A DNA stretch of 36,857 nucleotides, taken from NCBI GenBank assembly GCA_949285935.1, contig CASEAH010000061.1, positions 1-36,857 on the forward strand. The letters run 5' to 3'. Both the position numbers and the translations under genes were made by a program. Each line of letters starts with the position of its first letter. The first letter of the stretch is position 1. This DNA is from an uncultured Oscillospiraceae bacterium. GTDB taxonomy: Bacteria > Bacillota > Clostridia > Oscillospirales > Ruminococcaceae. Shown here one piece after another: positions 24,432 through 35,481 of the stretch. The notes beneath the pieces were generated by a model. It was not told where the DNA came from, searched no databases, and saw only the letters and a program-made list of their open reading frames with translations.

Positions 24432-24460
24432 AAAAGGGGAGGTTCGCCGCCTCCCCTTTT
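24432..24460 (-). terminator. Intrinsic terminator of the aromatic operon
   Basis: Perfect 11-bp stem AAAAGGGGAGG/CCTCCCCTTTT with a 7-nt loop, ending in a T run on the minus strand. It lies 5 bases after the rhodanese stop codon and just upstream of the pyr promoter, insulating the two operons. Confidence 0.9.
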
Positions 24461-24464
24461 ATTT

Positions 24465-24785
24465 CTACAAGCCCCTTTGGGCCCCCAGATCCCAAACCCG
24501 GCGGTACCCCAGGGCCGCAAGCAGCTGTGCCGCCACCCGGCTCCGCCCGCCTTTGTCGCAATAGACGAATACCGGCTCCTCCCGATGGGGAAGCAGCCGG
24601 GGCGCCAGGCGCATCACTTCCGCCTCGGGCAGGGACACGGCTCCCGGCAGATGGCCACGGGCATACTCCTCCCGCCCGCGGACGTCCACCACCGTATAGG
24701 AAGCGCCCGCGGCCTGCAGGCGGCGCAGCTCCTGCCGGGCGTCGCCGCTCATGGGGCGCAGCTTCGGTTCCGGTTGTTTTTGCAT
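24465..24785 (-). CDS. Rhodanese-like domain protein
   Basis: A single rhodanese domain of 106 residues. VVDVRGREEYARGHLPGAVSLP is the CH2A motif (read as VVDVRGREEYARGHLPGA), and the active-site loop CDKGGRS gives the catalytic Cys and the C-x4-R pattern. It may carry or transfer sulfane sulfur. The C-terminus ends earlier than most family members, lacking the usual GG-x-x-xW ending. It is the last gene of the aromatic operon, 32 bp after aroQ; a functional link to shikimate synthesis is not evident. Confidence 0.85.
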   Translation of the reverse strand: MQKQPEPKLRPMSGDARQELRRLQAAGASYTVVDVRGREEYARGHLPGAVSLPEAEVMRLAPRLLPHREEPVFVYCDKGGRSRVAAQLLAALGYRRVWDLGAQRGL

Positions 24786-24817: not shown

Positions 24818-25258
24818 TTATTTTTTTTCCGACAGCAGCGCCTTGAGGCAGAGCACCGCCTGGCGGTACCCTTCAAAGCCCAGACCGCAGATGGTCCGGA
24901 CGCAGGCCGCCGAAACATAGGAGATTCGCCGGAATTCCTCCCGCTGGCGGACGTCCGACAGATGGACCTCCACCGTGGGGATCCTCACCGCCTTCAGGGC
25001 GTCCAGCAGGGCCACGCTGGTATGGGTATAGGCCGCGGGGTTGAGGATGATCCCATCCACCCGGCCCATGGCCCCCTGAATGGCGTCCACCAGAGCCCCC
25101 TCATGGTTGGACTGAAAAAATTCCACTTCCAGCCCCTCCTGCCGGCAGATCCCCGTGACATATTCTATGAGGTCCGCATAGCTTCCGTTCCCGTAAATCC
25201 CCGGCTCCCGAATCCCCAGCAGATTCAGGTTGGGGCCGCTGATGACCAGCAGCTTCAT
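24818..25258 (-). CDS. aroQ: 3-dehydroquinate dehydratase, type II
   Basis: A protein of 146 residues, the usual type II length. It converts 3-dehydroquinate to 3-dehydroshikimate. Signatures: ISGPNLNLLGIREPGIYG at the N-terminus (catalytic Tyr in IYG), FFQSNHEGALVDAI and ILNPAAYTHTSVALLDAL, and the catalytic His in VEVHLSDV. The start at 25258 overlaps the aroEK stop codon by 4 nt (ATGA). The longer open frame reaching 25540 is a shadow of aroEK. Confidence 0.97.
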   Translation of the reverse strand: MKLLVISGPNLNLLGIREPGIYGNGSYADLIEYVTGICRQEGLEVEFFQSNHEGALVDAIQGAMGRVDGIILNPAAYTHTSVALLDALKAVRIPTVEVHLSDVRQREEFRRISYVSAACVRTICGLGFEGYRQAVLCLKALLSEKK

Positions 25259-26484
25259 AAGCCGCACTCCTTTCTGATCCGGGCCACCGTCTCCTCCACG
25301 GGGCCGTTGTTCTCCACCGTCACCCGGGCAAAGTCCCGGTAGACCGGCATCCGCTGCCGCCACAAGGCCTCTACCGCCGTCCGGTCCGGGGACAGGGGCC
25401 GTCCGTTGCCGGTTTCCAGGGCCTCCAGCCGCCGCTCCAGCAGCACCGGGATCCCGTTCTGGCGGATGGCCCGGCGGTTTTCCGGGGACATGGCCCCGCC
25501 TCCGCCGATGGCCACCACCGTTCCCGGCTCGGTGCAGCACCGGGCGATGGCCGCCGCCTCCCGGGCCCGGAAGCCCGCTTCCCCTTCCCGGGCAAAAATC
25601 TCCCCAATGGGCATTCCCGCTTCTGCCTCTACTTCCCTGTCGGTGTCCAGGAAGGGCCGCCCCAGCGCCCGGGCCAAGGCCCGGCCCACGGTGGTCTTAC
25701 CGCTGCCCGGCATCCCCAGCAAAACAAGGCTGCTCCGCTCTGCCGTCAGCTGCTCCAGCACCTCCCAGGCCCGTTCCTCGGGGATCTCCCGGCCCAGGAA
25801 CACCCGGGCCGCCGCCCAGGCCTGGGCCACCAGCATGGGCAGCCCTCCGGAGCAGGGGATCCCCGCTTCCTCAGCATCCAGGATCAGCGGGGTGCGCAGG
25901 GGGTTGTAGATCACATCCAGCACGCCCCGGCAGGAAGGAAAATCCTCCAGACGGATCAGCCGCTCTCCACACCGGGGCCACATCCCCACCGGGGTGGTGT
26001 TGACAATGACCTGGGCGTCGGCAAATTCCTTCAGGCGGTCATAGGTGACCGGGCCCTTCCGGGATACCACCGTTACCCGGGAGGCGCCCCGGTCCTCCGC
26101 CGCGCCCCGCACGGTATGGCTGGTGCCGCCGCTTCCCAGGATCAGTACCTTCTGACCTTCCAGAGCCACTCCTGCCCGGTCCGCCATGGCCAAAAAGCCG
26201 GTATAATCGGTATTATCCCCCCACAGGGAGCCGTCGGCGCGGCGCACCAGGGTGTTGACGCTGCCCAGCCGCCGGGCCCGGGGGCTCAGCTCCCGGCAAT
26301 AGGGGATCACAGCCTGTTTGTAGGGAATGGTGACGTTGAGCCCCCGGAACTGTCCCGCCCGGAGGAAGCCGGGAAGCTCCTCCGGCGGAAGAGGGGTCAG
26401 CCGGTAATCCGGCACCCCCAGCAGCTGATGGATGCGGGGGGAGCAGCTGTGGCCCAGCTTCTCCCCAATGAGTCCGAACTCCAT
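25255..26484 (-). CDS. aroEK: Fused shikimate dehydrogenase-shikimate kinase
   Basis: A protein of 409 residues with two domains. Residues 1-~240 are AroE: GHSCSPRIHQ binds shikimate, LNVTIPYKQAV carries the catalytic Lys, GDNTDYTGF the Asp, and VLILGSGGTSHTVRG the NADPH loop. Residues ~252-409 are AroK: Walker A GMPGSGKTT (257-265), DTDREVEAEAG, FRAREAAAIA, GGGGAMSPE and RRPLSPDR-like GRPLSPDR. It would reduce dehydroshikimate and then phosphorylate shikimate. Both active sites look complete. The frame is continuous with a short linker, so this is a true fusion and not a frameshift artefact of overlapping genes. Confidence 0.96.
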   Translation of the reverse strand: MEFGLIGEKLGHSCSPRIHQLLGVPDYRLTPLPPEELPGFLRAGQFRGLNVTIPYKQAVIPYCRELSPRARRLGSVNTLVRRADGSLWGDNTDYTGFLAMADRAGVALEGQKVLILGSGGTSHTVRGAAEDRGASRVTVVSRKGPVTYDRLKEFADAQVIVNTTPVGMWPRCGERLIRLEDFPSCRGVLDVIYNPLRTPLILDAEEAGIPCSGGLPMLVAQAWAAARVFLGREIPEERAWEVLEQLTAERSSLVLLGMPGSGKTTVGRALARALGRPFLDTDREVEAEAGMPIGEIFAREGEAGFRAREAAAIARCCTEPGTVVAIGGGGAMSPENRRAIRQNGIPVLLERRLEALETGNGRPLSPDRTAVEALWRQRMPVYRDFARVTVENNGPVEETVARIRKECGL

Positions 26485-26526: not shown

Positions 26527-27669
26527 TCAGACGATCTCCGAGTAACTGCCCAGATAGGTAAACTGCTCCACATCCCGCTCCAGCTGGCCAATGAGGGCCA
26601 GGGTGCGTGGGTCGTGTACCGAAGCCTCCAAATCAAAGTAAAACATGAATTCAAAATCCTTGCCGGGAATGGGGCGGCTCTCCAGCTTGGTCAGATTGAG
26701 ATCCAAAGCCGCCATCCTGGCCAGTACCCCGTAAAGAGATCCCGGACGGTGGGGCAGCTCCAGCATCAGGCTGGTTTTGCCGGCTCCGGGGTAAATCTCC
26801 AGCTCCTTGGAAATGCAGATGAACCGGGTATGGTTGTTGGGGCTGTTCTGGACCTGGTCGGTGAGGACCGTCAGGCCGTAAAGGGCGGCGCAGTCCCGGG
26901 AAGAAATGGCCGCCACATCCTTTCGGGAGGACTCAGCCACCATTCGGGCGGCCACGGCGGTGTTTTCGCAGACGGTGGCCCGGATCCCCGGATGGTCCTT
27001 CAGAAAGGCGCTGCACTGCTGGATCCCCTGTTCGTGGGAGAAAATCTCGGTCACATCCTCCAGGGCCGTTCCGCTCTTGGCCAGCAGGGTATGCTCCACC
27101 CGCAGCCGGACCCCCCGGACGATGTGGAACCGGTAGCGGCGCATCAGGTCGTAGACTCCGTTCACCGACCCGGCGGTACTGTTTTCGATGGGGAGGATGC
27201 CGTACCGGCAAAGCCCCCGGTCCACAGCCTGAAATACCCCTTCAAAGGTGCGGAAGTAAAGGATGCTGGGCCGGGAAAAGAGCTTGTCGCAGGCCTGCTG
27301 GCTGTAGGCGCCCTCCACTCCCTGGCAGGCCACTGTGGCCCCCTGGGGGAAGGCCCGCTCCCCCTGCTCCAGCGCCTGACGAATGTGGCTGCACACCGGG
27401 CTTTCCTCCGAAAGGCGGCTGTTTTGATAGGAACGGCTCAGATCCATCATGGTGGCATACAGCACCTTGGTGTAATCTCCCAGCTCATCTCCCGCCTGCT
27501 GGGCCGCCCGGGCCAGCACCTCCCGTTCCCGGCTGCGGTCCAGCACCGGCAGATTGTGGGCCAGCTTGTAGTCCCCGATGCGCCGGGCGATCTCCATCCG
27601 CCGGACAAACAGCTGGGTCAGCTGGCTGTCTATTTCGTCAATGGCCTCTCTCTCTTTTTCCAATCCCAT
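26527..27669 (-). CDS. pheA: Bifunctional chorismate mutase-prephenate dehydratase
   Basis: A P-protein of 380 residues. Residues 1-~85 are an AroQ-type chorismate mutase (REAIDEIDSQLTQLFVRR, then IGDYK). About 110-290 form prephenate dehydratase (VACQGVEGAYSQQA, PIENSTAGSV, and NNHTRF with catalytic Thr). About 297-380 form an ACT domain with PHRPGSLYGVL and the Phe-binding ESRP motif, so feedback inhibition by Phe is expected. AAGGAG precedes the ATG at 27669; the upstream in-frame extension runs into the 186-bp repeats and is rejected. It is the only visible mutase, so it must also feed TyrA. Confidence 0.96.
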   Translation of the reverse strand: MGLEKEREAIDEIDSQLTQLFVRRMEIARRIGDYKLAHNLPVLDRSREREVLARAAQQAGDELGDYTKVLYATMMDLSRSYQNSRLSEESPVCSHIRQALEQGERAFPQGATVACQGVEGAYSQQACDKLFSRPSILYFRTFEGVFQAVDRGLCRYGILPIENSTAGSVNGVYDLMRRYRFHIVRGVRLRVEHTLLAKSGTALEDVTEIFSHEQGIQQCSAFLKDHPGIRATVCENTAVAARMVAESSRKDVAAISSRDCAALYGLTVLTDQVQNSPNNHTRFICISKELEIYPGAGKTSLMLELPHRPGSLYGVLARMAALDLNLTKLESRPIPGKDFEFMFYFDLEASVHDPRTLALIGQLERDVEQFTYLGSYSEIV

Positions 27670-27720
27670 GATTTCCACACTCCTTATTTTAGTTCTCTTT
27701 CGACATTTATACGGCTCCAC

Positions 27721-28215
27721 GCCGTCCCGGGACGGCACCCTGCCGGGGATGTCCTTTTTTCCGAGGGCGGCAAACGGGAAAATCCGTTCAGGGGTCTCCA
27801 TAGCCAATATTTATAAAACAACCATCTCCGGCTGTTCCGGCAGTCTTGCCGGATTCCCCTGCCGGGCTCTCTTTTTGTATGCACGACGCGCCGTCCCCCC
27901 AGGCATTCCAACGGGGGCAGGGCCTCTTTCTCTCGGGGGCAAATGGGAAAATATCCCACAGACGTTCTCCACACCTGACATCCCAGACGCACGATGGGAA
28001 CAAGCAGCTATCTATGGCTGTCCCGGCAGTCTTGCCGGATTCCCCCGACGGGCTCTTTTTTTGTATGCGCGCCGTGCCGTCCCCCCTGGCATTCCAGCAG
28101 GGACAGGTGCTCTTTCTCTCTTTGGGGCAAATGGGGATAATCCGCAGCCGCTCTCCACACCTGATGCCCCAGGCGCTCGATGGGATCAAGTGGCCATCCC
28201 TGGCTGTCCCATCCG
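27721..28215. repeat. 186-bp tandem repeat between aroC and pheA
   Basis: Two well-matched copies and one degenerate copy. GGCTG-TCC appears at 27830, 28016 and 28202; CAGTCTTGCC at 27841 and 28027; CATTCCA at 27904 and 28090, all at exactly 186 bp. The degenerate copy nearest pheA includes the perfect palindrome GCCGTCCCGGGACGGC (27721-27736). Each good copy has a CCGGCA/TGCCGG hairpin followed by a T run on the plus strand, antisense to the operon. 186 is a multiple of three, so frames stay open across copies, but no ribosome-binding site or domain supports a protein. The whole 645-bp gap 27670-28314 is otherwise empty. Confidence 0.88.
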
Positions 28216-28314: not shown

Positions 28315-29394
28315 TTACAGCAGCAGGTCCGCCAGAGCTACCGCCAGAGCAGCTTCCGCCACCGGCACCGCCCGGGGCGCCACACAGGGGTCGTGCCGTC
28401 CCTCCACCCGCAGCAGGGCGTCCCGGCCGCTTTCCAGGTCTACCGTCCGCTGCTCCAGGGCAATGGAGGGAGTGGGCTTGAAGGCAGCCCGCACCACCAG
28501 AGGCATTCCCGACGCCAGACCGCCCAGGATCCCCCCGTGGCGGTTGGTGCGGGTGCAAACCCTGCCCTGGGGATCAAAGTAAAATTCGTCGTTATTTTCC
28601 GAACCCCGGAGCGTCGCCGCCTCAAATCCGGCGCCGAATTCCACTCCCTTCACCGCGGGGATGCTGAACATCAGGGCCGAAATGCGGCTTTCCAGCCCGC
28701 CGAAGAAGGTTTCGCCCGTTCCCGGCGGCACACCCAGGGCACAGCATTCCACCACGCCGCCCACCGAGTCTCCTGCCGCCCGTGCCCGGGCAATGGCCGC
28801 AAGCATCCGCTCCCCGGCGGCGTCATCCAGGACGGGAAAGGTTTTCCCCCCCGGCTCTGCCAGTTCCCGGGCGGTCACCGCCACCGGGTCAAAGGGCCGG
28901 TCTTTCTCTTTCGCCACGCTCAGCAGGTGCCCGCCGACGCCCACGCCCCGACGCTCCAAAAGCTGGATGCAGACCGCCCCGGCAAAGCAGAGGGGGGCTG
29001 TCAGCCGTCCGGAAAACTCCCCGCCGCCCCGTATGTCCCGGTAGGGGCCGAATTTGGCCCAGGCGGCATAGTCTGCGTGCCCCGGGCGGGGAAGGCGGCG
29101 CAGCTGGTCGTAATCCCGGCTGCGGGCGTCGGTGTTGGAGATGACGGCGCACAGGGGCGCGCCGCAGGTGTGGTCCTCCTCGGTCAGCCCCGACAGGATC
29201 TCCGGCCGGTCGGCTTCCCGCCGGGCCGTGGTGTGGGGGCCCTGTCCCGGAGCCCTGCGGGCCATAAACCGCCCGATCCGTTCCAGATCCAGCTTTTCTC
29301 CCGCCGGCAGCCCGTCCACCACCACCCCCATGCCCGGGGAATGGGACTGTCCAAAAAGGGTCACTTTGATCTTATTCCCCGTTGTGGATGACAT
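28315..29394 (-). CDS. aroC: Chorismate synthase
   Basis: A protein of 359 residues that converts EPSP to chorismate with reduced FMN. The N-terminal motif is LFGQSHSPGMGVVVDG, the clostridial variant of the canonical GESHG with catalytic His kept. GGGEFSGRLTAPLCFAGA is the second signature and DPQGRVCTRTNRHGGILGG the third (read as RTNRHGGILGG). GGGAGG precedes the ATG at 29394, within the last codons of aroA; the genes overlap by 23 bp. Confidence 0.97.
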   Translation of the reverse strand: MSSTTGNKIKVTLFGQSHSPGMGVVVDGLPAGEKLDLERIGRFMARRAPGQGPHTTARREADRPEILSGLTEEDHTCGAPLCAVISNTDARSRDYDQLRRLPRPGHADYAAWAKFGPYRDIRGGGEFSGRLTAPLCFAGAVCIQLLERRGVGVGGHLLSVAKEKDRPFDPVAVTARELAEPGGKTFPVLDDAAGERMLAAIARARAAGDSVGGVVECCALGVPPGTGETFFGGLESRISALMFSIPAVKGVEFGAGFEAATLRGSENNDEFYFDPQGRVCTRTNRHGGILGGLASGMPLVVRAAFKPTPSIALEQRTVDLESGRDALLRVEGRHDPCVAPRAVPVAEAALAVALADLLL

Positions 29395-30649
29395 CGGCTC
29401 TTCCTCCCAATTTCCTGTAATCTTCAAAAAATCCCGGATAGGACTTGGCCACCGCCTGGACGTCCCGGATCACCACCGGACCCCGGCATCCGGCAGCCGC
29501 CACCGCCGCCGCCATCACAATGCGATGGTCCTGCCAGCCGTGGGTCACCCCTCCGGGAAGGCTCTCCTGCCCCCGGATCTCCAGCCCGTCGGGCAGCTGC
29601 CGGATGTGGGCCCCCAGGGCCCCCAGGCTGTCCGCCAGGGCTGCCAGCCGGTCACTCTCCTTGTCCCGGAGCCGGGCCGCGCCCCGCAACCGGGTCGTCC
29701 CGGGGGTCAGCACTGCCAGCGCCGCCAGCGCAGGCACCAGATCGGGAATCTGGGAAACATCCACATCCAGGGGGAACAGCCTGCCCCGCCGCACCGCCAG
29801 CATACCGCCGTCGGGGGCTGCTTCCGCCCCGGCCAGTACCGTAAGGGCCATCATCGCCCGATCCCCCTGGGCCGTATCCATTTCCAGCCCTGAGATGCCC
29901 ACCGGCCCTCCCAGGGCTCCCGCCGCCAGCCAGAAGGCCGCGCCCGACCAGTCGCCCTCCACCCGAATCTCTCCGGGGGAGCGGTAGGCTTGTCTTCCCG
30001 GCACCCGCCATCCCCGTTCCCGGGGCTCCACCCGGACGCCGAACCGGGCCATGGCCCGGAGGGTCATTTCCACATATCCCGCTGATTCCAGAGGCGGCAG
30101 GAACTCCACCACGCTGTCCCCATCCAGCAGGGGCAGCGCCATCAGCAGGCCGGAAAAGTACTGGGAGCTGACGTTCCCCGCCATCCGGTAATGTCCGGGC
30201 GTCAGGCAGCCCCGGGCCTCCAGCGGCCAGCTTCCCGGGGACGAAAGCCGGGCGCCGTGGGCTTCCAGCTCCTCCCGCAGGGGCGAAAGAGGACGTTGGG
30301 GCAGCCGCCCGTGTCCCCCAAAGCTTCCGCCTCCCAGCAGCAGCGCCGCCGGGAGCAAAAAGCGCAGGGTGGAGCCGCTTTCCCCGCAGTCCAGACAGGG
30401 CAGAGGGCCTTCCCGCCGGGCCCGGGAAAGAGGATGGACTTCCACGCCTCCCGAAAAGGGTACAATCCCGGCGCCCAGGGCCTCCAGACACCGGGCGGTG
30501 GCCTCCAGGTCCTCATTGCTCCCATCCAGCAGCAGCCGGGTGGGGCGGTCGGCCAGCGCCCCGCAGATCAAGAGCCGGTGGGCCGCGGACTTGGAGGGCG
30601 GGGCGGCGATCCTGCCCCGAAGAGGGGCGGGGGTGATGCGGATGTCCAT
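29372..30649 (-). CDS. aroA: 3-phosphoshikimate 1-carboxyvinyltransferase (EPSP synthase)
   Basis: A protein of 425 residues. It joins PEP to shikimate-3-phosphate. Family signatures: PPSKSAAHRLLICGALAD near residue 17, LDCGESGSTLRFLLP, GNVSSQYFSGLLMALP, ESDRLAALADSLGALG and the catalytic region HGWQDHRIVMA. AAGGAGG lies upstream of the ATG at 30649. The open frame continuing to 30862 overlaps aroB and is discarded. It follows aroB by 13 bp. Confidence 0.97.
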   Translation of the reverse strand: MDIRITPAPLRGRIAAPPSKSAAHRLLICGALADRPTRLLLDGSNEDLEATARCLEALGAGIVPFSGGVEVHPLSRARREGPLPCLDCGESGSTLRFLLPAALLLGGGSFGGHGRLPQRPLSPLREELEAHGARLSSPGSWPLEARGCLTPGHYRMAGNVSSQYFSGLLMALPLLDGDSVVEFLPPLESAGYVEMTLRAMARFGVRVEPRERGWRVPGRQAYRSPGEIRVEGDWSGAAFWLAAGALGGPVGISGLEMDTAQGDRAMMALTVLAGAEAAPDGGMLAVRRGRLFPLDVDVSQIPDLVPALAALAVLTPGTTRLRGAARLRDKESDRLAALADSLGALGAHIRQLPDGLEIRGQESLPGGVTHGWQDHRIVMAAAVAAAGCRGPVVIRDVQAVAKSYPGFFEDYRKLGGRADVIHNGE

Positions 30650-30662
30650 AACATGTTCCTCC

Positions 30663-31727
30663 TTATAAAGCGTCCAGTCCCAGAGCGAAGAAGTCTTCCA
30701 GTTCCTCCACCTGCAGCGTATGGAGGACGCAGCGCCCAATGGCTTCGGGGATGACCAGCGCAATGCTGCCGCCCTGGCGCTTCTTGTCGCTGAGAGCGGC
30801 CTGAGCCAGTTCCCGGGCTCCGTAGGGGCAGGCGGTTTCCAGCCCCCGCAGCTCCAGAGCATCGCGGATGGCGGGAGTGGTGTCCTCCGGGGAAAGACCC
30901 GCCCGCCAGGCGGCCCGGGCCATGATGATCATTCCCATGGCTACCGCCTGCCCGTGGGGGATGGCATAGCCGCTGAGCAGTTCGATGCCGTGGCCCGGGG
31001 TGTGGCCCAGGTTCAGCAGCTGCCGGTCTCCCGTATCCCGCTCATCCCGTTCCACCAGCCCCGCTTTGACCCGGACGCACCGGAGGATCGCCTCCGTCAG
31101 GTCATCCCTGCTCAGGGCTTTCCGGTTCAGCAGGGCAAAAAGTTCCGGGTCGCCGATGATCCCGGTTTTCACCGCCTCGGCCATGCCGTCGGCCAGGATG
31201 GAGGGCGGCAGGGTATCCAGGGTCCGGGGATCGCAAACCACCAGCCTGGGCTGATGGAACGCCCCGGCCAGATTCTTGCCCGCTCCCAGGTCCACCGCCG
31301 TTTTGCCTCCCACCGAGGAATCAATGGCTGCCAGCAGCGTAGTGGGCACCTGGATGAAGGCGATCCCCCGCAGGTAGCAGGCAGCGGCAAAGCCCGCCAT
31401 GTCTCCCGTCACGCCGCCGCCCAAAGCCACCACCAGGTCGGTGCGGGTCAGACGGTTCTCCGCCAGAAATTCCAGCATCTGCCCCCATTGGGCAAGGTTT
31501 TTGGAGCTTTCTCCGTGGGGAAAAACATGTTCACACACCTGGAACCCGGCGGCTTCCAGCGCCTGCCGGGCGGTCCGTCCGTACAGCCCGGCCACCGTAT
31601 CGTCCGAAATCAGCGCCGCCTGCCGGCCGGACGCCACCGGAGCCGTCAGCTTGCCCAGCCGGTCCAGCAGCCCTTCTCCTACCAGCACATCGTAGGGGGG
31701 AGACACCTTGACAGGGATCCGGTTCAC
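30663..31727 (-). CDS. aroB: 3-dehydroquinate synthase
   Basis: A protein of 354 residues. It cyclises DAHP to 3-dehydroquinate using NAD+ and a metal. NAD-binding loop VVALGGGVTGDMAGFAAACYLRG (read as GGGVTGDMAGFAA), metal ligand region NLGHTPGHGIELLSG and GQAVAMGM are all present. The start is GTG at 31727, overlapping the tyrA stop codon by four bases (GTGA), implying translational coupling. Confidence 0.97.
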   Translation of the reverse strand: MNRIPVKVSPPYDVLVGEGLLDRLGKLTAPVASGRQAALISDDTVAGLYGRTARQALEAAGFQVCEHVFPHGESSKNLAQWGQMLEFLAENRLTRTDLVVALGGGVTGDMAGFAAACYLRGIAFIQVPTTLLAAIDSSVGGKTAVDLGAGKNLAGAFHQPRLVVCDPRTLDTLPPSILADGMAEAVKTGIIGDPELFALLNRKALSRDDLTEAILRCVRVKAGLVERDERDTGDRQLLNLGHTPGHGIELLSGYAIPHGQAVAMGMIIMARAAWRAGLSPEDTTPAIRDALELRGLETACPYGARELAQAALSDKKRQGGSIALVIPEAIGRCVLHTLQVEELEDFFALGLDAL

Positions 31728-32587
31728 AGCCGGTCCACCTCCTCTTTCCGCTCTCTTCCTTCCCGCAGCAGCGCCTTGAGCCCCGCCCGGTCCCCGGCTT
31801 TCAAAGCCTCGCTGTACGCCAGCAGCCGGGCAGCCAGCCCGTCGATCTCTTCCGCCAGCGCCTCCCGGTTATCCAGGAAAAGCTGGGTCCACATTTCTTC
31901 GTTGAGCCAGGCTACCCGGGTCAGATCCCGGAAGCTTCCTGCCGAAAAGCCTTTGTGCCCCAGGGCGGCGGGGCTTTTGACATAGGCGTTGGACAGCACA
32001 TGAGCCAATTGGGAGGTGAAGGCGATCTCCCGGTCATGGGCCTCCGGGGTGGTGTGGGTAATGCTGCCGAAGCCCAGAGCCATGGTAAGGGCTTCCACCC
32101 GTTCCAATGCCCACCGGGGCGCACCCGGCAGGGGGGTCAGGATCATGGAGGCTCCGTCAAACAGATCCGCCCGGGAAGCCGGATACCCCACCTGGGCGGC
32201 TCCCGCCATGGGGTGTCCGCCGACATAGGCAAAGCCGTACCGGTCGGCCAGGGCCTGGCAGGGGACGCAGACCCGTCCTTTGACGCCGCAGCAATCCACC
32301 ACGACCGTATCCTTTCCCAGATGGGGAGCGTGTTCTTCCAGCCAGGCCACCGCCGCCTCCGGGTACAGGGCCAGATAGAGGACGCCGCACTCCTTCAGGT
32401 TGACCTGGGACAGCACGCCGTCCGCCGCGCCTTCCCGCAGGGCGTCGGCCAGGACGCCCGGGTCTGCATCGGCCCCCAGCAGACGGCTGGGAAGGCTCCG
32501 TTTGACGGCCTTGGCCAGGGACCCGCCGATGAGCCCCAGTCCCACGACTCCCACACAGGCGGGAAGCCCGCCTTTTTCCGCCGCCAT
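31724..32587 (-). CDS. tyrA: Prephenate dehydrogenase
   Basis: A protein of 287 residues. It oxidises prephenate to 4-hydroxyphenylpyruvate on the Tyr branch. The Rossmann loop is VGVVGLGLIGGSLAKA near residue 12, and the catalytic His lies in the GGHPMAGA motif. No chorismate mutase domain and no C-terminal ACT domain are present, so enzyme-level Tyr feedback may be lacking; control could rest on the operon leader. The start at 32587 shares one base with the aroF stop codon (TGATG). Confidence 0.95.
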   Translation of the reverse strand: MAAEKGGLPACVGVVGLGLIGGSLAKAVKRSLPSRLLGADADPGVLADALREGAADGVLSQVNLKECGVLYLALYPEAAVAWLEEHAPHLGKDTVVVDCCGVKGRVCVPCQALADRYGFAYVGGHPMAGAAQVGYPASRADLFDGASMILTPLPGAPRWALERVEALTMALGFGSITHTTPEAHDREIAFTSQLAHVLSNAYVKSPAALGHKGFSAGSFRDLTRVAWLNEEMWTQLFLDNREALAEEIDGLAARLLAYSEALKAGDRAGLKALLREGRERKEEVDRL

Positions 32588-33597
32588 CAGCGGCTCTTGC
32601 CCATAAAGGGCAGCAGCTGATCCACCCGTCCGGCCACCTGGGCAAAGACCTCGGGGGTAAGGGATTGGGCTCCGTCGCAAAGAGCGTGGCGGGGATCGTT
32701 GTGGACCTCGATCATCAGGCCGTCGGCCCCTGCGGCCACCGCGGCCATGGACATGGGCTCCACCAGCCGGGAGATGCCGGTGGCATGACTGGGATCCACC
32801 ACAACGGGCAGGTGGCTCATTTCGTGAAGGAGGGGGACGGCAGACAGGTCCAGGGTGTTCCGGGTGGCGTTTTCAAAGGTGCGGATTCCCCGCTCACAGA
32901 GGATCACTTTCTGGTTGCCTCCCGCCATGATGTATTCGGCGCTCATCAGCAGCTCCTGCAGGGTGTTGGCCAGACCCCGCTTGAGCAGGATGGGCTTGTC
33001 GATGGCACCCAATTCCTTAAGCAGCTCAAAGTTCTGCATATTCCGCGCGCCCACCTGGATGATGTCCACATCCTGGAACCAGGGAAGATGGCTGCCCTCC
33101 ATGATCTCGGTGACAATGGGCATGCCGGTGGCCTCCTTGGCCCGCAGGAGCAGCTCCAGCCCCTGGGCCCGCAGGCCCTGGAAGGCGTAAGGGGAGGTCC
33201 GGGGTTTAAAGGCGCCGCCCCGCAGGAGGGTAGCTCCGGCCGCCTTCACCTGCCGGGCCACCGCTATGATCTGTTCTTCCGACTCCACCGAACAGGGGCC
33301 TGCAATGATCTGGAAATGGCCGCCGCCGATCTTTTGCCCCCCCACTTCAATGACGGTATCGTCGGGGTGGAACTTGCGGTTGGCGTTTTTGTAGGGCTCC
33401 TGGATGCGCTTGGCGTCCTCCACGATCTCCAGGCTGCGCACCAGGTCGATGTCTACCCGGGAGGTATCCCCCACCAGTCCCAGCACCGTCTGGTAGGCAC
33501 CCTGGCTCAGATGGGTCTCCAGCCCCATGCCGTGGAGCCAGTCCAGCAGGCTGTCCAGCTGTTTTTGGTCGGGTTCTCTCTTCAGTACCAGTATCAT
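32587..33597 (-). CDS. aroF: 3-deoxy-7-phosphoheptulonate (DAHP) synthase
   Basis: A protein of 336 residues of the type I beta group found in Thermotoga and Bacillus. It condenses PEP with erythrose-4-phosphate, the entry step. Residues 1-~70 form a ferredoxin-like regulatory domain (MILVLKREPDQKQLDSLLDW), often responsible for Tyr/Phe inhibition. The barrel has IIAGPCSVES, LLRGGAFKPRTSPYAFQG and VVDPSHATG with metal ligands. GGGAGG precedes the ATG. It is the first structural gene of the operon and sits 39 bp after the leader terminator. Confidence 0.97.
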   Translation of the reverse strand: MILVLKREPDQKQLDSLLDWLHGMGLETHLSQGAYQTVLGLVGDTSRVDIDLVRSLEIVEDAKRIQEPYKNANRKFHPDDTVIEVGGQKIGGGHFQIIAGPCSVESEEQIIAVARQVKAAGATLLRGGAFKPRTSPYAFQGLRAQGLELLLRAKEATGMPIVTEIMEGSHLPWFQDVDIIQVGARNMQNFELLKELGAIDKPILLKRGLANTLQELLMSAEYIMAGGNQKVILCERGIRTFENATRNTLDLSAVPLLHEMSHLPVVVDPSHATGISRLVEPMSMAAVAAGADGLMIEVHNDPRHALCDGAQSLTPEVFAQVAGRVDQLLPFMGKSR

Positions 33598-33635: not shown

Positions 33636-33675
33636 AAAAAAACAGCCCCGCCGCGGGTTCCCGCTGCGAGGCTGT
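33636..33675 (-). terminator. Attenuator terminator upstream of aroF
   Basis: On the minus strand, ACAGCCTCGCAGCGGG pairs with CCCGCGGCGGGGCTGT (16 positions, one mismatch and one G-U) around a minimal loop, followed by seven T. It lies between the leader peptide and aroF, with no structural gene before it, which is what an attenuator requires. Its 5' arm can also pair with GGCAAGGCT at 33741-33749 inside the leader peptide. Confidence 0.9.
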
Positions 33676-33695
33676 CAGTCAGGCGAATATACCTA

Positions 33696-33812
33696 TCACG
33701 CCCGGACCGTGCTTCTCCTGTCAGCAGACAAACCCGAAAAAGCCTTGCCATAAAAATAGGCAAAGCTATAGCTAAAGTAGAAAAATTCAACGGTAAGGCT
33801 GTAATTTTTCAT
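33696..33812 (-). CDS. Phe/Tyr-rich leader peptide of the aromatic operon
   Basis: An open frame of 38 codons plus TGA, too short for standard gene finding. It begins MKNYSLTVE, then FFYFSYSFAYFY (residues 10-21, nine of twelve aromatic), then GKAFSGLSA and a basic tail. In total there are six Phe and five Tyr, and no Trp. CGGAG and GGGAGG lie 11-23 bases upstream, a somewhat long spacing. The RNA over codons 5-7 (AGCCTTACC, 33792-33800) can pair with codons 22-24 (GGCAAGGCT, 33741-33749), which can instead pair with the 5' arm of the terminator. This is the layout of ribosome-mediated attenuation: stalling at Phe or Tyr codons would free the second segment and prevent termination. The peptide and mechanism are inferred from sequence only. 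Confidence 0.85.
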   Translation of the reverse strand: MKNYSLTVEFFYFSYSFAYFYGKAFSGLSADRRSTVRA

Positions 33813-33889
33813 AGCTTCGGGCACTCCGTTTCCTCCCGCCGGGGCGGGATCCGTCAGGGTAAAGTACGGTTTTCCGACCGTTTGCGGTC

Positions 33890-33918
33890 ATTATAGCACA
33901 GCATTTTACCGCTGTAAA
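33890..33918 (-). promoter_or_regulatory. Promoter of the aromatic operon
   Basis: Minus-strand TTTACA (33913-33918), 17-bp spacer, perfect TATAAT (33890-33895). The -35 element lies in the dyad TTTAC-AGCG-GTAAA. CGTACTTTAC occurs both at the -35 and again ~53 bp downstream, so a second, protein-based layer of control is possible. A GACCG/CGGTC hairpin sits at the predicted 5' end of the RNA. Confidence 0.8.
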
Positions 33919-33944: not shown

Positions 33945-34751
33945 TTACGGATTTTTTCCCACCCGCAGTTGGATCTCGGTGACATATTCTTCCCGGTCCA
34001 GGGTCTCGTGGGCGTCAATGTGATAGATTTCCACCGGCGCGTCCAGGGGATGCAGGCCCTGGCCTTCCATAAATTCTCTCAGGCGGCCCATGGTCTCCTC
34101 CCGCCGGGCGTAGCTTCCCCGGTACACCGCCGACGCATACAGCCCCGGTTCCAGCAGCACGTCCCAGTCCCGGGCCCCCGGGGTTATGAGGAGGACAGAG
34201 GAAAAGCACCCGTATTCTCCCCGGGCCAGATGCTCCGCGCTGAGGACCGCGGCAATCTTTTCGTCATCCAGGCTGCGGAGTACCGTTTCATGCTTTTTTT
34301 CCAGCTTGCGCAGCAGGAAGTCCATATTATCATCCAGGATCACTTCGTTCCCCAGCTGATAGCAGGGGCGGCCGGAAAGTTCCAGCAGACGGGGAGCTTC
34401 AGGCAGGGCTGACGCCTCCCGGATGTCCCGGATGCGGCGCTCTACATCCCGCCGGGCCTGGCGCAGCTCCCGGATACGGCTGTCAATGATCCGTTCCTCC
34501 TCCTCCATCATCCTGAGGGTGGAGGGTACGCTGCGGGCAGTAATATAATCCCGGATCCGTTCCATGGGCATATCCAGTTCCCGCAGTTCCCGGATGACAT
34601 TGAGATTGCAGATGTCCTGGATGCGGTAGCGGCGGTAGTTGTTTTCTCCCCGTTCAGGGGAAAGGATTCCCTGTTCCTCATAGTAGCGCAGGGTATCTGC
34701 GCACAGGCCGTAAAGCCGGGCGATCTCACGGATGCGATAGCTGTCGCTCAT
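33945..34751 (-). CDS. MerR-family regulator with GyrI-like effector domain
   Basis: A protein of 268 residues. The N-terminal winged helix (about 1-70) reads YRIREIARLYGLCADTLRYYEEQGILSPER, the MerR signature (seen as IREIARLYGLCADTLRYYEE). A coiled-coil dimerisation helix rich in Arg and Glu spans about 75-120. The C-terminal ~145 residues resemble the multidrug-binding domain of BmrR/BltR (GyrI-like). No metal-binding cysteine set is visible, which favours an organic ligand. The start at 34751 has AGAAGG upstream. It is divergent from a MATE pump whose promoter has MerR features, the likely target; its 3' end abuts the aroF promoter. Confidence 0.9.
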   Translation of the reverse strand: MSDSYRIREIARLYGLCADTLRYYEEQGILSPERGENNYRRYRIQDICNLNVIRELRELDMPMERIRDYITARSVPSTLRMMEEEERIIDSRIRELRQARRDVERRIRDIREASALPEAPRLLELSGRPCYQLGNEVILDDNMDFLLRKLEKKHETVLRSLDDEKIAAVLSAEHLARGEYGCFSSVLLITPGARDWDVLLEPGLYASAVYRGSYARREETMGRLREFMEGQGLHPLDAPVEIYHIDAHETLDREEYVTEIQLRVGKNP

Positions 34752-35481
34752 GTTTGGAACCTTCTTTCTATAATTGCTTTGTGATTGCCCCCAAAATCGG
34801 AGCCGGGCCTGCCGGCGGCCGGGGAGATTCCCCTCCAAGAATTCAGGATGCGCTCCCCTCCTGCCCTGATCCGCTCCCCCTGATCCCCCAAAAATCATGG
34901 CTGGCCTTCACCATATCCCGTGGCAATTTCCCTGGAAAGGAACACCAACTTTCCGCCTCATCTTTTGGGGGCTGGGCTGGATTTCTGGGGCGGAGGCTTC
35001 CGCCTTCTCCGTCCCAAGCTGGCGGGACTGCCGCTATGGATACAAAATTCTCTGCCCCGCCGCTTTTCTTTTCCTCCGCACGGGATATTGGGGGAGGAGC
35101 GGAGATTTCTGGCTTTTGAGTCCCAAGCTGGAGGAACTTCTGTTATGGATACAAAATTCCCTGCCCCGCCGCTTTCCTTTCCCGCTGCACAGGATATTGG
35201 GGGAGGGGGCGGATGCTTTTGCCTTTTGGTGCGCCGGTTGGGGCATCTCCTCTGTAAAAAGAGCGCCCTGCACCCAAATTTTTTAAAACAGCAAATGTAC
35301 TTTCCCAGACTGCCTCCAATTGGATGCATATCAGGAGATGTTTGAAAGAATGCTGGCCCCTCTGTTTATTCCTGGCAGCCCCAGCCAAGCCGGAACAGGG
35401 TTTGTCCGCATATGGGAAAGGTTTGTCAGCCCCATTCTTGGACCGGATCGGGGGTGTGATGAATTTAACGAAAAATCCCCC
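34752..35481. other. Intergenic region between merR and the MATE gene
   Basis: About 730 bp with no convincing gene. The central part is the 109-bp tandem repeat (separate entry). The frames that cross it have no ribosome-binding site and repeat with the DNA. 35240-35481 shows nothing recognisable before the MATE promoter. Confidence 0.6.
34965..35235. repeat. 109-bp tandem repeat between merR and MATE
   Basis: GTCCCAAGCTGG occurs at 35011 and 35120, TATGGATACAAAATTC at 35035 and 35144, and GATATTGGGGGAGG at 35084 and 35193, all exactly 109 bp apart. A more diverged unit begins near 34900-34965 (TTTTGGGGGCTGG). The array is unrelated in sequence to the 98-bp and 186-bp repeats elsewhere in the window. 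Confidence 0.85.

Follow-up and report, generated by a model that had tools for sequence, protein, structure and literature searches.

What governs transcription of the aro operon in an uncultured Oscillospiraceae bacterium, in which a small reading frame crowded with phenylalanine (Phe) and tyrosine (Tyr) codons precedes the first gene, aroF? We addressed this question in a stretch of 36,857 nucleotides (nt) from contig CASEAH010000061.1 of assembly GCA_949285935.1 (hereafter the window, meaning the whole stretch), where leader and operon are both read from the minus strand. An earlier sequence-only reading had proposed a Phe/Tyr leader-peptide transcription attenuator, consisting of a promoter, a Phe/Tyr-rich leader open reading frame (ORF) and a strong terminator ahead of the aro genes. 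That arrangement is borne out in the sequence, and the wider proposal is supported by the reading frame, codon run, terminator and covarying stems of homologous leaders, whereas the particular strands named for the alternative folds did not hold. On this comparative evidence, the stretch is very probably a ribosome-mediated transcription attenuator ahead of the aro operon.

The leader ORF (33696–33824, stop codon at 33698–33696) has 42 codons if read from a GTG at 33824 and 38 if read from an ATG at 33812. Translated from the ATG it yields MKNYSLTVEFFYFSYSFAYFYGKAFSGLSADRRSTVRA, with Phe at residues 10, 11, 13, 17, 20 and 25, Tyr at residues 4, 12, 15, 19 and 21, and no tryptophan (Trp), in agreement with the six Phe, five Tyr and absence of Trp reported previously for a 38-codon peptide. 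The control codons (33750–33785) encode FFYFSYSFAYFY, residues 10–21. A Shine-Dalgarno-like GGGAGGA, recognised by eye at 33831–33837, lies 6 nt 5′ of the GTG, a better spacing than for the ATG, which leaves the start ambiguous; because of this placement, the peptide may comprise 42 residues rather than 38. Upstream, at 33890–33918, a sigma-70-type promoter (TTTACA, 17 nt, TATAAT, with TG ahead of the −10 element) matches the consensus at 11 of 12 positions. Downstream of the ORF, folding and family covariation delineate an intrinsic terminator hairpin (33641–33676, about −27.8 kcal/mol), followed by a tract of five U residues (33636–33640). The leader therefore combines an ORF carrying cognate codons with an intrinsic terminator ahead of the first gene, as is expected of an attenuator. 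When the 400 nt 5′ of aroF were shuffled, none of 100 shuffles gave a small ORF with at least nine Phe, Tyr or Trp per 14 residues, and the 251-nt leader folds at −105 kcal/mol compared with a shuffle mean of −78.7 kcal/mol (z −6.0; 0 of 200 shuffles as good). A simple terminator scan was unremarkable on its own, with 1 site against 1.2 expected from shuffles.

The sequence-only reading had recommended a search among related leaders, and we assembled the best 80 of 591 aroF loci in our genome collection, an uneven sample, together with six loci from the same genus, 86 in total. One of these (L030) gave no ORF, leaving 85 scored loci, among which two genomes appear twice (L002 is L008, and L003 is L009). 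A leader was called where a small ORF within 400 nt 5′ of the gene contained at least seven Phe, Tyr or Trp in 14 residues; 66 of the 85 loci passed, and in 65 of the 85 the ORF score was reached by no more than five of 100 shuffles. Of the loci with a leader, 65 have a terminator-like hairpin, and 63 of these hairpins reach −9 kcal/mol or better, among them that of L070, where the hairpin picked is the run's own. The median gap from leader stop to aroF is 106 nt. Throughout, sequences drift, yet reading frame, aromatic run and terminator persist, and covarying alternative stems are present. In the genus of the window, aroF was found in seven of ten genomes; one locus (L007) is cut off, and all six others carry a leader, two of them (L004 and L006) with a reduced run (score 6). 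In these two, the run has shrunk to Y-R-Y-Y-R-F-P-R-F-W or similar, with arginine, proline and Trp present, and their control codons may be decaying or shifting.

The codon run behaves as a translated sequence. Across 63 leaders, including that of the window and excluding the duplicate or near-identical L003, L008 and L009, the in-frame run averages 8.40 aromatic residues for every 14 codons, versus 2.25 and 2.73 in the other two frames, and no stop codon interrupts the run in frame, versus 6 and 67 in the others. The runs hold 281 Phe, 245 Tyr and 3 Trp in all, with Tyr encoded almost evenly (TAT 118, TAC 127) and Phe mostly by TTT (241, against 40 TTC). A link between the Tyr fraction and the next gene (tyrA 0.48, n = 56; aroB 0.31, n = 5; two loci too short) was dropped, the numbers being too uneven. 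These data bear on the idea that the leader RNA is a riboswitch, or another ligand-binding element for an aromatic compound, and that the Phe/Tyr ORF is incidental. The leader is indeed strongly structured, and the faecium aroFBC-tyrA operon (PMC4448216) can be adduced, but the aromatic codons are frame-specific, their frame is kept across divergent leaders, codon identity varies with the downstream gene (see below) and the window has no Rfam match, making such an element extremely unlikely.

How general the leader is was gauged in a class sample of 69 evenly drawn genomes, of which 49 carry this type of aroF, in 66 genes. The leader test was passed by 23 of the 66 genes, each in a different genome; three of them (L337, L328 and L324) are doubtful. 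Applied to other genes of the same sample, the test was passed by 0 of 30 tyrS, 0 of 29 leuA and 2 of 30 pheA genes, and only one of the two pheA cases is clear (L236, the same gene as L177 below). Similar leaders also occur in records labelled Flexilinea (L040), Oligosphaeraceae (L058), Lentisphaeria (L059), Coriobacteriales (L073) and Treponema (L082), which could reflect either transfer of the operon together with its switch or mis-binning. The leader of Anaerovorax odorimutans (L017) has two Trp within or beside the aromatic run, a rarity among these leaders.

Clostridia are usually described as users of T-box RNAs, and the operon could in principle be under T-box control with the ORF a coincidence. 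In the genome of the window, 11 T-box matches reach E ≤ 0.001, four of them above the Rfam cut-off and one of these four directly 5′ of tyrS (G000:C97:33009-34525), so that, judged by these matches, the genome owns both kinds of sensor. In the class sample, a plain T-box pattern together with the leader test divides the 66 aroF upstream regions into 22 with a leader only, eight with a T-box motif and no leader, one with both and 35 with neither; in the single coincidence (L337), the ORF was read as lying inside the T-box. Some aroF orthologs thus follow a T-box motif and others a leader. For the operon studied here, T-box control is contradicted by the sequence already and is next to impossible, as the whole window contains no T-box (RF00230) at the Rfam gathering score and the plain-pattern motif is absent from the 400 nt 5′ of all 66 leader-bearing loci of the first set.

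If the leader is an attenuator, its RNA should be able to adopt mutually exclusive folds, and these should be kept across homologs. We therefore aligned the 39 leaders, out of 59 selected references, that were judged to share a common layout (alignment A1). The terminator is paired in 87.3% of cells, with all 11 of its pairs changed on both sides and a covariation of 0.568 versus 0.247 in shuffled alignments. A central hairpin, whose 5′ arm AGCTTTGCC (33759–33767) lies within the aromatic run and whose 3′ arm is GGCAAGGCT (33741–33749), is paired in 89.0% of cells (covariation 0.429 versus 0.224). Downstream of it, the antiterminator strand, here called segment 2 (33717–33735), carries a UUUYGCUG-like sequence and pairs with segment 3 (33655–33671), which comprises the 5′ arm and loop of the terminator. 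This pairing occupies 70.6% of cells with a covariation of 0.289 versus 0.195, which falls to at most 0.198 when the partner is slid by one to three columns. The alignment-free comparison of segment 2:3 duplex energies with dinucleotide shuffles, made on 63 loci with a score of at least 6 and a terminator of −9 kcal/mol or better (L003, L008 and L009 dropped), gave a mean z of −1.45, with p ≤ 0.05 in 26 and p ≤ 0.01 in 11 of the 63 loci; the significant duplexes include loci of quite different sequence (L018, L082, L016 and L043). Because the codon phase of segment 2 varies in A1 (one phase in 28 of 39 leaders, other phases in 3) and because the strand lies 3′ of the leader stop in the remaining 8, the comparison indicates that it is kept as RNA and not just as peptide.

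The window itself adopts the same architecture in silico. Without the 3′ arm of the terminator (segment 4), the RNA from 33738 to 33655 folds at −33.5 kcal/mol into an antiterminator in which GGGUUU (33735–33730), CUGCUG (33727–33722) and AGG (33719–33717) of segment 2 pair with CCU (33671–33669), CAGCGG (33666–33661) and GAACCC (33660–33655) of segment 3; with segment 4 present, the terminator (3:4) replaces it. An antiterminator that excludes the terminator, with compensatory changes, is thus found in the family, and in the window by folding. These strands differ from those first proposed. The sequence-only reading had placed its segment 2 at 33749–33741 and paired it with ACAGCCTCGC (columns 96–100:192–196), an arrangement paired in 65.6% of cells against 65.9% after shuffling, with a covariation of 0.281 against 0.283, although it still stands above slid registers, which reach at most 50.5% paired. 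Its 1:2 pairing (33800–33792 with 33749–33741) fared similarly, at 55.1% paired against 54.5% and a covariation of 0.156 against 0.139 (0.172 at a slide of +2); just one measure, 21 cells changed on both sides against 11.1 (3 of 500 shuffles), rises above chance. In homologs, 33749–33741 is instead the 3′ arm of the central hairpin, with its partner at 33767–33759 inside the run, and the antiterminator strand lies further downstream, at 33735–33717.

Several observations weigh against an attenuator of this design. In the window, the antiterminator fold reaches a z of only −2.06 (6 of 200 shuffles equally good), and its 2:3 duplex does not outdo shuffles of the same GC-rich sequence (p 0.83; 0.81 in a second test); support for the pairing in the window is the register that it has in common with the homologs. 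A1 is a chosen subset, and its covariation counts are inflated by relatedness. Two of the five antiterminator measures are weak (of 500 shuffles, 22 match the pairs changed on both sides and 54 the further pair types), and sliding by −1 gives more cells changed on both sides than the proposed register (45 versus 41). The outer protector pairing of segment 1 with segment 2 has a column covariation of 0.180 versus 0.163. In a simple stall model, the terminator dominates at equilibrium even with a ribosome in the run (0.93–0.95 in the window; mean of 0.85 over 61 loci). Finally, 19 of the 85 loci scored first and 43 of the 66 class-sample genes fail the leader test, and the loci come mostly from metagenome-assembled genomes.

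Some of these points would also suit a constitutive partial terminator whose leader is vestigial in this genome: the 2:3 duplex of the window does not exceed its shuffles as those of many homologs do, and L004 and L006 of the same genus have reduced runs. Yet all the elements persist in the window in the family register, namely a run of 12 codons, the central hairpin, an antiterminator fold and the terminator, and the window scores 96.6 bits with the leader model described below (for which it was a training sequence), so we regard a vestigial leader as very unlikely.

The outer 1:2 pairing (GCAGCUGAA-like with UUUCGCUGC-like strands) is attractive by eye but shows no clear covariation; in a duplex test on 61 loci (L003, L008, L009, L025 and L081 left out), it reached p ≤ 0.05 in 16, with a z of 0.1 in the window. 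In 53 of the same 61 loci, the stall model gave more pairing of the terminator 5′ arm when the ribosome was placed in the run than when it stood at the stop. Equilibrium folding was rejected as the switch, the terminator prevailing in most loci wherever the ribosome sits. Since it does so, the choice between folds would have to be kinetic, as in classical attenuators.

We envisage the following sequence of events. With ample charged tRNA-Phe and tRNA-Tyr, the ribosome would reach the stop codon and come to rest over segments 2 and 3 or between them, and the terminator would form. If either tRNA were short, the ribosome would stall in the run and open the central hairpin (33767–33759:33749–33741), so that segment 2 could pair with segment 3 while segment 4 had yet to be transcribed; with the antiterminator formed, RNA polymerase would continue into aroF and the genes beyond. 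The mixed codons suggest that one switch would sense two amino acids, a shortage of either Phe or Tyr being enough. The ferredoxin-like domain of AroF relatives binds Tyr or Phe, and by analogy the same signals may act on the AroF enzyme as well as on the transcript.

A further alternative is that the peptide acts through its own sequence, as an arrest peptide, or that the ORF mainly serves translation re-initiation at aroF, with no sensing of Phe or Tyr. Motifs such as GKA recur 3′ of the run among the leaders, and re-initiation has been proposed for leader genes (PMC4833913). The recurrent peptide motifs, though, fall where the RNA pairs, in the central hairpin and segment 2, and the latter is retained even in the eight A1 leaders where it follows the stop; in addition, a median of 106 nt, terminator included, separates the stop from aroF. 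We consider this alternative highly improbable and retain Phe/Tyr-dependent attenuation as the explanation.

Leaders with such codon runs also precede genes other than aroF. We built a covariance model (R1) from the 39 A1 leaders and collected hits at E ≤ 0.01, training sequences included; weak hits near E 0.01 include chance matches, and strict filters can lose real leaders. Searched at family level, R1 hits 43 of 148 genomes, at class level 60 of 391 and at phylum level 21 of 398, all counted as model hits and not as verified leaders. After the 59 R1 loci from the first two of these searches (L099–L157), the first recognised gene is aroF in 51, pheA in 3, aroB in 2, leuA in 1 and ilvB in 1, while L117 ends too early; inspection of 20 further or weak places led us to judge 9 as real (L158–L165 and L177) and 11 as not real or undecidable. 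Overall, leaders were seen ahead of aroB (L110, L115), pheA (L125, L151, L156, L160, L162, L164, L177), tyrS (L159, with YYY), leuA (L149, L318; L161 precedes a LeuA-family gene under the leuA cut-offs) and ilvB (L119, L307).

The codons fit the gene that follows: Phe before pheA, Tyr before tyrS, leucine (Leu) before leuA, and isoleucine (Ile), valine (Val) and Leu before ilvB. In genus g185, the five pheA leaders seen have Phe and no Tyr (L156, L160, L162, L164 and L177), alongside four Tyr-rich aroF leaders (L157, L163, L165 and L291), all within a single genus and so counting as a single lineage. Outside g185, two pheA leaders (L125 and L151) do contain Tyr. Leu- or Val-rich leaders ahead of leuA and ilvB (L149, at about 1490; L318; L307) match the model built from aromatic leaders. 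The leuA leader of L149, QLNLLNLALLLQ, does so at an R1 E-value of 9.6e-9, and its 2:3 pairing was matched by 0 of 200 shuffles. Another leader of the same design with aromatic codons (L158, at about 1186) stands ahead of a phenylacetate-CoA ligase gene (paaK), which suggests control of aromatic salvage.

Occasionally two leaders stand in series. In L119 (1467–1880; genome G041, of the family of the window), two Ile/Val/Leu-rich ORFs 5′ of ilvB are each followed by a terminator-like hairpin, making this locus a candidate for tandem leader-peptide attenuators; its 2:3 duplexes gave p 0.06 and 0.45. Two tandem Phe-rich leaders, each with a central hairpin and antiterminator, likewise precede one aroF in L305 and L317 (G797:C1:739452-739750).

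When 20 leaders were tested together, among them both leaders of L119, both of L305 and that of the window, the 2:3 duplex reached p ≤ 0.05 in 12, the misses being both L119 leaders, L177 (where the finder mis-picked the terminator), L151, L125, L110, L115 and the window. Six of the 20 have a weak run hairpin (z above −1.1), namely the pheA leaders L160, L162, L164, L177 and L156 and the leuA leader L318, and because of these the central hairpin is not general to the design. A general occurrence of branched-chain leaders ahead of ilvB was considered and rejected: among 50 ilvB upstream regions, two had at least nine Leu, Ile or Val in 14 residues (L389 and L393), L393 alone being judged plausible; no Leu/Ile/Val leader was seen before the ilvB of the genome of the window (L386), and none for Leu was evident in 30 leuA loci, the best (L199) having 8 of 12 Leu, Ile or Val.

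It is tempting, though we put this forward tentatively and as somewhat short of an even prospect, to see in these loci one attenuator design shared by Clostridia and neighbouring classes, whose codon cassette has been exchanged in evolution, sometimes with two copies in tandem. Behind the run, the design would have an antiterminator strand resembling UUUYGCUG and a terminator arm resembling CGCAGUGAA, and the run itself would usually contain a hairpin; the cassette would be Phe and Tyr where aroF, aroB or paaK follows, Phe where it is pheA, Tyr ahead of tyrS, Leu ahead of leuA and Ile/Val/Leu ahead of ilvB. The model hits favour a shared ancestry of these leaders with the aroF leader over convergence, while the missing hairpins count against one fixed scaffold, and the absence of the hairpin from several leaders of other genes lowers our confidence in cassette exchange. 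By making the polymerase pause, the run hairpin may hold transcription level with translation; if it does, the two would be closely coupled in these bacteria. A pause consensus was not supported: a Y-G step lies 12 nt 3′ of the central hairpin in 15 of 38 leaders, versus 21 at 5 nt and 20 at 15 nt.

In the window, the genes under the presumed control of the leader follow in the order aroF, tyrA, aroB, aroA, aroC, pheA, aroE-aroK, aroQ and rhodanese, as domain matches bear out. The first, aroF (32587–33597), encodes a DAHP synthase with a ferredoxin-like domain (NF006421, 485 bits; PF00793, PF18152). Profile matches identify tyrA (31724–32680 as the longest-start ORF, with the prephenate dehydrogenase domain from residue 55), whose product, as stated earlier, lacks an ACT domain match in the profile search, aroB (30663–31727), aroA (29372–30862 as the longest ORF, with the EPSP synthase domain from residue 78) and aroC (28315–29427). 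Next come pheA (26527–27807), a chorismate mutase-prephenate dehydratase gene with an ACT match of 24.1 bits, under the Pfam cut-off of 27, an aroE-aroK fusion in a single ORF (25255–26484, by profile matches), aroQ for a type II dehydroquinase (24818–25540 as the longest ORF, by profile match) and a gene for a rhodanese-domain protein (24465–24785; PF00581, 61.2 bits). The last gene is followed by a terminator-like hairpin of 11 pairs (24432–24460), a candidate operon end and the sole terminator-like site listed by the scan on the minus strand between 33641 and 24432; over both strands, the scan returned 17 sites versus 13.1 expected. On the other side of the leader, a gene for a MerR-family regulator with a GyrI-like domain (33945–34898, same strand) ends 27 bases ahead of the promoter.

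What makes these leaders worth pursuing is partly their distribution, with related switches turning up in many Clostridia, which are generally portrayed as dependent on other kinds of RNA sensor, and partly what they demand of the cell. For leader-peptide attenuation to work, a ribosome must follow RNA polymerase closely, and Bacillus subtilis has been described as uncoupled. With a leader 5′ of aroF in 23 of the 49 aroF-bearing genomes of the class sample (three doubtful), coupling in Clostridia becomes directly testable, and the Phe-only pheA and Tyr-rich aroF leaders of g185 offer a natural experiment in codon identity.

How does the switch compare with known systems? At the gathering score, no Rfam model matched in the window, the Phe leader and other amino acid leaders included, nor in 20 scanned loci, eight of them leader-bearing (L001, L002, L010, L017, L024, L055, L059 and L083), placing the leaders as an RNA family outside Rfam. 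The leader-peptide attenuators of proteobacterial pheA, his and trp operons (RF01859 and kin) resemble the present leader in having a codon run and alternative antiterminator and terminator folds 5′ of an amino acid operon; unlike them, the leader of the window mixes Phe with Tyr, occurs in Clostridia and has no Rfam match. The mechanism is therefore already known, while the leader family appears undescribed as far as the literature searched shows: that search, whose coverage ended short of subscription papers and preprints, returned nothing on Phe/Tyr leaders as a family 5′ of clostridial aroF.

The earlier statement that Firmicutes mostly use T-box RNAs or TRAP for these pathways needs qualifying, because leader-peptide attenuators have been published there for histidine and Leu, and a predicted one for aroF (PMC2965389, PMC9413887, PMC5794164, PMC8632094). 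Histidine leader-peptide attenuators are described from Bacilli (PMC2965389) and from Eubacteriales and Erysipelotrichales (PMC9413887); they too belong to Firmicutes and alternate with T-boxes on related genes, and they differ in the amino acid, in preceding his genes and in being known from few species. The experimentally supported, Leu-rich attenuator peptide of the Staphylococcus aureus ilv operon is a Firmicute leader peptide like that of the window but with Leu (and Ile) codons (PMC5794164). For Lactococcus lactis, the Leu/phe leader RF01743 (PMC2864571) provides a model, which had no match in the window, and the predicted aroF leader peptide of Corynebacterium glutamicum contains Phe-Tyr-Phe, coming from an Actinobacterium and with three aromatic residues named (PMC4046766).

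The closest published item is uORFC-13-1, a predicted upstream ORF (uORF) attenuator found exclusively 5′ of aroF in Acholeplasma and unidentified environmental sequences, with 24 representatives (PMC8632094, 2021). The accessible part of that paper lists a possible promoter, ribosome-binding site and start codon, a U-run with one or more Phe codons and what looks like an intrinsic terminator alongside; it describes no Tyr codons, run hairpin or 2:3 pairing, and the comparison is one of descriptions (PMC8632094). The window fits that account in lying 5′ of aroF with a Phe-codon uORF and then a terminator, and some of the environmental uORFC-13-1 members may belong to the leader family presented here.

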